Positions 919 through 1,407 of a DNA stretch of 64,000 nucleotides are shown piece by piece; positions within the stretch are counted from its first letter, which is position 1, and every line of letters starts with the position of its first letter. The notes beneath the pieces are model-generated. The model searched no databases. It had not been told where the DNA came from and was given only the letters and a program-made list of their open reading frames with translations. The DNA is from Burkholderiales bacterium (GTDB taxonomy: Bacteria > Pseudomonadota > Gammaproteobacteria > Burkholderiales > SG8-39), in contig JAOAEA010000002.1 of the NCBI GenBank assembly GCA_026417035.1, forward strand, positions 1-64,000, in the 5' to 3' direction. The translations under genes were made by a program, and so were the position numbers.

Positions 919-934
919 TGGCACGCGCCTTGCA
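919..934 (+). promoter_or_regulatory. Sigma-54 (RpoN) -24/-12 promoter
   Basis: The sequence TGGCACGCGCCTTGCA contains the -24 element TGGCAC and the -12 element TTGC, with GG and GC separated by exactly ten bases as RpoN requires. Transcription would start near 945, about 22 bases before the GTG of the next gene. The end of an NtrC-type activator gene lies just upstream. Confidence 0.75.
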
Positions 935-966: not shown

Positions 967-1407
967 GTGGAAGCCAGACGAGGCCAACGCGTTTCCCCGC
1001 TCGTCGCCGGCGCGGCCGCGTCGATCGCCGTCGCGAGCCTCGCGGTTGCGGCGGCCGTCACCGGGCTCCTTCCGGCGGCCCGCCCGGGCGGCGCCGATGC
1101 GCTCGCGCGCGCCGACACGCGCAAGGCGGCGATCGCCGCCGAGGTAGGCTGCGCCACGTGCGGCGTCGTCGATTCGGTGCGCGCCGTCAGAACGCGCGGC
1201 GAGGGCACCGGCTTCGGCGCGGTCGCGGACGATGAGGCCGGGAAGACCGTGCGCAGCCGGACCGTGTATCGCGTGACGGTGCGCATGGACGACGGCTCGT
1301 GGCGCACCTTCTCGCAGCCCGCCGCATGGCGCCCGGGCGAGCGGGTGCGCGTGGTGGACGGGAGCCTCGTCGCGGCGGACGGCCCCCAGGAGGGCCGCGC
1401 GCGCTAG
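967..1407 (+). CDS. Small membrane-anchored protein, possibly related to glycine-zipper outer-membrane proteins
   Basis: The likely product is 146 residues from a GTG, the first plausible in-frame start after the sigma-54 promoter; no clear Shine-Dalgarno is visible. The N-terminus has one long hydrophobic stretch (about residues 10-35, VSPLVAGAAASIAVASLAVAAAV) that could be an uncleaved anchor or signal. The rest carries CATCGVVDSVRAV and a late YRVTVRMDDGSWRTFSQ segment. These resemble the flanks of glycine-zipper 2TM proteins, where a zipper sits between them; here the zipper itself is missing. The protein may be periplasmic and facing a stress-type regulon. Function is unknown. A strong terminator follows at 1505. 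Confidence 0.6.
   Translation: MEARRGQRVSPLVAGAAASIAVASLAVAAAVTGLLPAARPGGADALARADTRKAAIAAEVGCATCGVVDSVRAVRTRGEGTGFGAVADDEAGKTVRSRTVYRVTVRMDDGSWRTFSQPAAWRPGERVRVVDGSLVAADGPQEGRAR

Follow-up and report, generated by a model that had tools for sequence, protein, structure and literature searches.

Does a sigma-54 promoter motif that lies downstream of a glrR gene answer to that gene's product and, if so, what does it turn on? The question arises at the start of a Burkholderiales contig, of which we analyzed a stretch of 64,000 nucleotides (the window), together with its genome and the corresponding loci of relatives.

The promoter motif and its neighbors

Because the contig starts at base 1 of the window, the front of glrR is missing. 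What is left of this stress-response regulator, a sigma-54 activator, is the C-terminus, 82 residues and a stop codon (2-250, + strand; NCBIfam PRK15115, E 1.3e-23). It shows 91% identity with the corresponding part of GlrR in a genome of the same genus, G001. There, the order is kinase, lipoprotein-like ORF (assigned by eye), GlrR and then a homolog of the target gene. The full-length GlrR of G001 has receiver and sigma-54-activator domains and shows 57% identity with its E. coli counterpart over 446 aa; the kinase has HisKA and HATPase domains, a weak HAMP match and 34% identity to E. coli GlrK over 477 aa. The lipoprotein ORF stands where E. coli has qseG (gene order glrK-qseG-glrR) and bears a weak resemblance to QseG (E 0.07). 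In the window, a small ORF of 107 aa with a lipoprotein-like start (247-570, + strand) overlaps the glrR stop (ATGA) and ends in GWNDGYAYCRPR. It stands between glrR and the promoter region, where the first-pass annotation was silent on it, and matches no Pfam or NCBIfam entry at E 1; relatives of it follow glrR in four genomes (G010, G014, G015 and G086) and, more distantly, in some named loci.

The promoter motif, TGGCACGCGCCTTGCA (919-934, + strand), departs at no position from the sigma-54 consensus TGGCACGN4TTGCW. Its GG (920-921) and GC (932-933) stand ten bases apart, so that the -24 and -12 elements are present with the spacing first claimed for them. The distances given in the first-pass annotation, about 670 bases past the activator gene and 33 bases ahead of the next one, are likewise accurate: the glrR stop ends at 250, the promoter begins 669 nt later, and a GTG start follows at 967, 33 nt past 934. 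The genome encodes rpoN, and a consensus scan of 560-1600 for sigma-70-type promoters found none. With the usual spacing between a sigma-54 promoter and its start point, transcription would be expected to begin near 945.

By itself, the motif is not significant. Allowing one mismatch, TGGCACN5TTGCW matches once in the 64-kb window, where 0.80 matches are expected; in the 3.77-Mb genome there are five exact copies and 24 sites with at most one mismatch, against 26 for a reversed-pattern control. We therefore rejected the motif as sole evidence for a promoter, and the case is decided by its surroundings, namely the putative GlrR sites and the conserved module to which they belong.

Putative GlrR sites and a module that recurs beside glrR

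Three GlrR/QseF sites of the form TGTN12ACA are described upstream of E. coli glmY (PMC6075780), and a stricter consensus, TGTCN10GACA, has been given (PMC8745638). The first-pass annotation had marked 570-918 as the place to look for enhancer palindromes, and two were found there, in a layout conserved beside glrR in relatives. Candidate site 1, TGTCGTGCGCCACCGACA (601-618), fits TGTCN10GACA exactly; candidate site 2, CGTCGGGCCGTGGCGACG (659-676), is off at two of the eight defined positions. Both fall in the gap of 348 nt that separates the small ORF from the promoter. A matrix was built, with the window excluded, from 31 loci of relatives that together supply 58 sites upstream of promoters; it scores the two palindromes at 16.8 and 13.7 bits and ranks them first and second of all positions in the 64 kb. 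Among 5000 dinucleotide shuffles of the gap (571-918), none held two sites of at least 13.5 bits, and ten held one of at least 16.8 bits. Further, in 6 kb of E. coli K-12 the same matrix places the three sites upstream of glmY first to third (20.2, 16.5 and 12.9 bits), with the fourth-ranked position at 5.8.

The same arrangement was sought in relatives. GlrR C-termini occur in 55 of 98 family genomes, at 62 places; we read 61 of these, including the window and counting some genomes twice. A sigma-54 site with at most one mismatch lies within 800 nt downstream of glrR in 32 of these 61 loci; there are 34 such sites in 47.9 kb, versus 10 in 879 kb elsewhere in the same loci, a 62-fold difference in density. 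The strict layout, a pair of GlrR sites with a promoter (at most two mismatches) 75-100 nt further on, is found at 29 of 61, a count that is partly circular because the matrix came from family loci. The independent tests of the matrix are E. coli and a named set of 70 loci (80 minus 10 that repeat family contigs), which lies outside its training. In the named set, 29 of the 70 loci have the sigma-54 site within the same limits, and 27 combine a GlrR site with a promoter (27 in 53.5 kb versus 5 in 1.18 Mb elsewhere); the strict pair layout occurs in 12 (versus 4 elsewhere). No promoter of this grade was seen within 800 nt at 29 family and 41 named loci, some of them cut by contig ends. A looser search for one GlrR half-site plus promoter matched at least 76 of the 98 genomes and many controls too; the window's own genome is absent from these matches because its spacing is too long. 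In G001, the promoter has one mismatch and the usual layout is kept.

The module has a third element. An IHF-like box, CGACTGCCTGATC (886-898, + strand), stands 33 nt before the -24 element of the window; it is weak and degenerate, with three mismatches to the IHF consensus. In 45 of 59 relatives the best match to such a box lies 31-33 nt before -24, an offset that the window shares. A box with at most two mismatches is present between -46 and -22 in 47 of the 59, while 200 shuffles gave a mean of 6.5 and a maximum of 13. Two GlrR sites, an IHF-like box near -32 and a sigma-54 promoter thus form a module that recurs downstream of glrR in relatives, and the linkage of this cassette to glrR is kept over many genera. 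Among the culturable relatives with the cassette are Methylovorus mays, Methylovorus menthalis and Novimethylophilus kurashikiensis.

The window departs from its relatives in geometry. Its two GlrR sites are spaced at 58 bp, with 260 bp from the second to the -24 element. The spacing of the pairs in relatives is 65-67 bp in 24 of 27 cases, and there the nearer site lies 81-96 bp before -24 in 29 of 31 loci, in two clusters (81-84 and 93-96) about one helical turn apart. Spacing of that kind, which is usual for the GlrR/QseF regulon but does not strictly define it, is not seen in the window, where the sites are some 170 bp further from the promoter and the order of the module is kept. We rejected a repeat as the source of the additional DNA, since a search of the genome with 676-918 gave no further copy at E 0.001. 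A GlmY-like small RNA in the gap was also rejected, as positions 1-2500 gave no Rfam match at E 1.

Elsewhere in the genome the combination is scarce. Among the five exact promoters, only 919-934 has an exact TGTCN10GACA within 500 bp upstream. Exact pairs of GTCGN8CGAC, a strict pattern that misses degenerate sites, occur at three places, and only that of the window is followed by a sigma-54 site within 300 bp; at a second (C225), an exact sigma-54 site is about 1.3 kb off, on the wrong side. The suggestion of a one-gene target is plausible, in that only one of these three places has a promoter nearby. A one-mismatch promoter, L057 (G000:C112:79049-79064), also has an exact TGTCN10GACA, 214 bp upstream. 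Two further one-mismatch sigma-54 sites lie within 5 kb of it, and these may be additional targets.

The best explanation overall, to which we assign a probability of roughly 0.8, is that a genuine RpoN-dependent promoter lies at 919-934 and that the adjacent GlrR activates it. The more general statement, that the gene downstream is regulated by GlrR and sigma-54, is very probably correct, to judge from the sequence comparisons. The proposal of a local target for the neighboring regulator is therefore well supported, both by the top-ranking sites and by the conservation of the arrangement beside glrR. Another possibility is that the promoter depends on RpoN but is served mainly by a different NtrC-class protein (PilR- or NtrC-like, for example), with GlrR a mere neighbor. 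Sigma-54 activators can indeed cross-talk; nevertheless, the top-scoring sites of the window are GlrR-type palindromes, the matrix that found them recovers the glmY sites of E. coli, and the cassette has stayed with glrR across genera, all of which makes a different main activator most improbable.

The E. coli GlrK-QseG-GlrR system (QseEGF; targets glmY and rpoE P2) offers the closest comparison. It has a homologous regulator, the same palindromic sites, a sigma-54 promoter and, as in the window, a target beside the regulator genes; IHF assistance, described for E. coli (PMC6075780), we count as shared. The enterobacterial regulator is reported to activate glmY and rpoE (PMC6075780). The systems differ in that the E. 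coli target is the small RNA GlmY, encoded upstream of glrK, whereas in the window it is a protein gene downstream of glrR.

A zipper-less, SlyB-like protein as the probable target

The putative target gene (967-1407, + strand) is supported by codon GC, homologs, a structure model and the family profile. It begins with GTG, preceded by no obvious Shine-Dalgarno sequence, encodes 146 aa and has GC contents of 0.78, 0.64 and 0.90 at the three codon positions. The terminator that had been placed at its end is present as a six-pair stem with a T-run (1510-1529, + strand), about 100 nt past the stop, between the convergent target gene and thyA.

The protein consists of one predicted membrane helix, a linker, a CxxCG motif and a small beta-barrel. 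In the structure model, the helix spans residues 12-31 (with low confidence) and five strands fall within 65-136. Fifty residues have pLDDT of at least 90; the mean pLDDT of 69.4 and the pTM of 0.47 reflect a poorly fixed anchor and linker. No lipobox was seen by eye, and the model shows the helix in place of a lipoprotein anchor. The CxxCG codons (1150-1164, + strand; C62, C65 and G66) are invariant both in an alignment of 19 family members, where the only other invariant positions are the start and G124, and in one of nine zipper-less members. A PADLOC search gave no match.

Several comparisons point to SlyB as a relative of this family. Searched with a profile of the 19 members, the PDB sequences yield a single entry below E 0.001, SlyB (E 1.6e-14), and the alignment spans both barrel halves and the glycine zipper between them. 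Foldseek with the model of the target lists SlyB in its first row (E 0.014, TM-score 0.31). A second aligner places it ninth (Z 6.2, 75 residues, rmsd 3.1), below eight small barrels that are unrelated by name, none of which reaches Z 8. The window protein alone finds no PDB sequence at E 1, and we accordingly rejected direct sequence homology between it and SlyB. With the profile of the nine zipper-less members, SlyB is missed at E 10, and the weak rows that do appear (the best a ribosomal protein, E 0.097) were taken as chance. The link thus rests on the zipper-bearing members of the family, which is likely, on these sequence matches, to be related to SlyB. The family resembles SlyB, a lipoprotein that guards the outer membrane (PDB 7ojf, 7ojg), in the profile match and in the zipper between the first two barrel strands. 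It differs in that the target has a predicted membrane helix and not a lipid anchor, in the added CxxCG, which is lacking from the SlyB stretch of the alignment, and, for the window protein, in the loss of the zipper.

The first-pass annotation had reported the glycine zipper missing between the two conserved parts of the protein, and this is correct. Pfam PF05433 (glycine zipper 2TM) matches 13 of the 19 family members at E 0.1 and does not match the window protein, which has no Pfam family at E 1 and lacks the zipper hairpin. The distance from CxxCG to the second strand is exactly 66 residues in 27 of 49 listed proteins, versus 34 in the window. Relative to G001, which keeps the zipper, about 32 residues of it are missing with the reading frame intact. 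The approximate junction of this loss lies at 1222-1227 (+ strand), in the beta1-beta2 loop (78-96 of the model), and the first zipper turn (GEGTGFGAVA) and the exit are retained. The linker before CxxCG also differs from that of G001, with a 17-residue gap in the window. Other zipper-less forms are found in G010, G014, G030, G086, Methylobacillus caricis, two Methylovorus species and one betaproteobacterium. No promoter or GlrR site of comparable grade was seen after glrR in Methylobacillus caricis. In a tree of 46 rows (the 49 minus two without a second barrel half and one duplicate gene), presence or absence of the zipper changes eight times, degenerate zippers being counted as present; the starred branches force at least four changes for the zipper-less group. 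Six rows of the tree are long branches.

Such a loss, together with the aberrant spacing (58 and 260 bp) and the degenerate IHF-like box that coincide with it in this genome, might mean that 919-934 is a chance match or the remnant of an ancestral cassette, with activation broken by the spacing and a zipper-less gene in decay; the usual layout of G001 and a motif no commoner than its control would fit this as well. The promoter of the window, however, is perfect and so better than that of G001, the frame has been kept through the deletion, the third-position GC is 0.90, and the CxxCG and barrel residues are intact. In G010 and G014, zipper-less versions accompany the usual cassette, and in G086 one that is slightly shifted. 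Further, NtrC-class activators can act from several hundred base pairs away. We thus consider decay unlikely.

With GlrR as the activator, an envelope cue would lead GlrK to phosphorylate GlrR, which would bind 601-618 and 659-676. The DNA would bend, a step in which the IHF-like box at 886-898 may help, and the RNA polymerase-sigma-54 complex waiting at 919-934 would be remodeled by the ATPase of GlrR. Transcription from near 945 would then yield the 146-aa protein, anchored in the inner membrane by its single N-terminal helix, with the CxxCG and the SlyB-like barrel presumably in the periplasm, a topology pieced together from its parts.

The role of the product, called unclear in the first-pass annotation, can be narrowed: we infer that it is a zipper-less, membrane-anchored SlyB-like protein. 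A review describes rings formed by SlyB, which may encapsulate outer-membrane proteins (PMC13067283). With the zipper lost in frame, the target probably cannot form membrane rings of that type and would more likely bind a partner through its barrel or CxxC pair. Our best guess, a tentative one, is that it serves as an envelope-protection or feedback component by one of these means. Only a little less credible is that the regulation is as proposed and the gene encodes a CxxC protein with metal or redox activity, functionally unrelated to SlyB. The invariance of CxxCG in all 19 aligned proteins, its absence from the aligned SlyB stretch and the generic small barrels that make up most other structural matches speak for a CxxC function; the family's match to SlyB, in covering both barrel halves and the zipper, speaks against it.

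What the cassette carries

Cargo was counted by eye downstream of 32 family promoters, that of the window included. A SlyB-like gene comes first in 11 and stands behind an EF-hand/BON gene in two; the one EF-hand/BON protein scanned, that of G031, has a match to OsmY (E 6.1e-17) that stays under the cut-off of that family. In three, a large secreted-type protein comes first and a SlyB-like gene further on. A membrane protein of about 110 aa occupies the slot in 10 and follows a transposase-like ORF in two; tblastn confirmed 11 of these 12 loci, all except L113. Another secreted-type protein is found in one, and three have no clear cargo. One member of the ~110-aa family, when scanned at E 0.01, matched neither Pfam nor NCBIfam.

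We propose, with somewhat less than even confidence, that in Betaproteobacteria and some Gammaproteobacteria a conserved enhancer-IHF-sigma-54 cassette next to glrR is under the control of GlrR, that different envelope proteins (SlyB-like, OsmY-like EF-hand/BON or the ~110-aa membrane protein) can replace one another in its downstream slot, and that repeated zipper loss turns a ring-forming SlyB relative into a partner or feedback protein. If so, GlrR would be a general envelope-defense switch rather than mainly a small-RNA regulator. Both the sequence that GlrR recognizes and the promoter layout are found again next to glrR in distant lineages, which points to small envelope proteins as direct targets. 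The finding provides a concrete, testable regulon and ties GlrR to outer-membrane protection of the SlyB type, and the role of the zipper could be revealed by the zipper-less forms, which amount to natural deletions.

The review cited above places SlyB itself under the control of PhoPQ and sigma-E, not GlrR (PMC13067283). GlrK-GlrR pairs are reported from beta-proteobacteria (PMC8895600), with no target named in the sections available, and the Bordetella sigma-54 activator of PMC11722255 is not called GlrR there. A search of titles and the starts of abstracts, in which subscription journals are thinly covered, returned no GlrR driving a SlyB-like or glycine-zipper gene; nor did it return papers for GlrR combined with Betaproteobacteria, with EF-hand proteins or with Burkholderia and RpoN.

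Some individual loci show how varied the slot can be. The ~110-aa membrane protein family stands beside glrR at L088 (454-777), L115 and others; at L092 and L101, the transposase-like ORF (recognized by eye) lies between the sigma-54 promoter and the gene for this protein. In the gammaproteobacterium Wenzhouxiangella sediminis (L151), GlrR sites and a one-mismatch promoter precede an EF-hand/BON gene in the slot. At L035, L076 and L099 the cassette stands before the large secreted-type protein, with the SlyB-like gene some 2.4-2.7 kb past the promoter. The secreted-type protein of L076 has, by eye, a lipobox-like start, fibronectin-like repeats and a CxxCH near its end.
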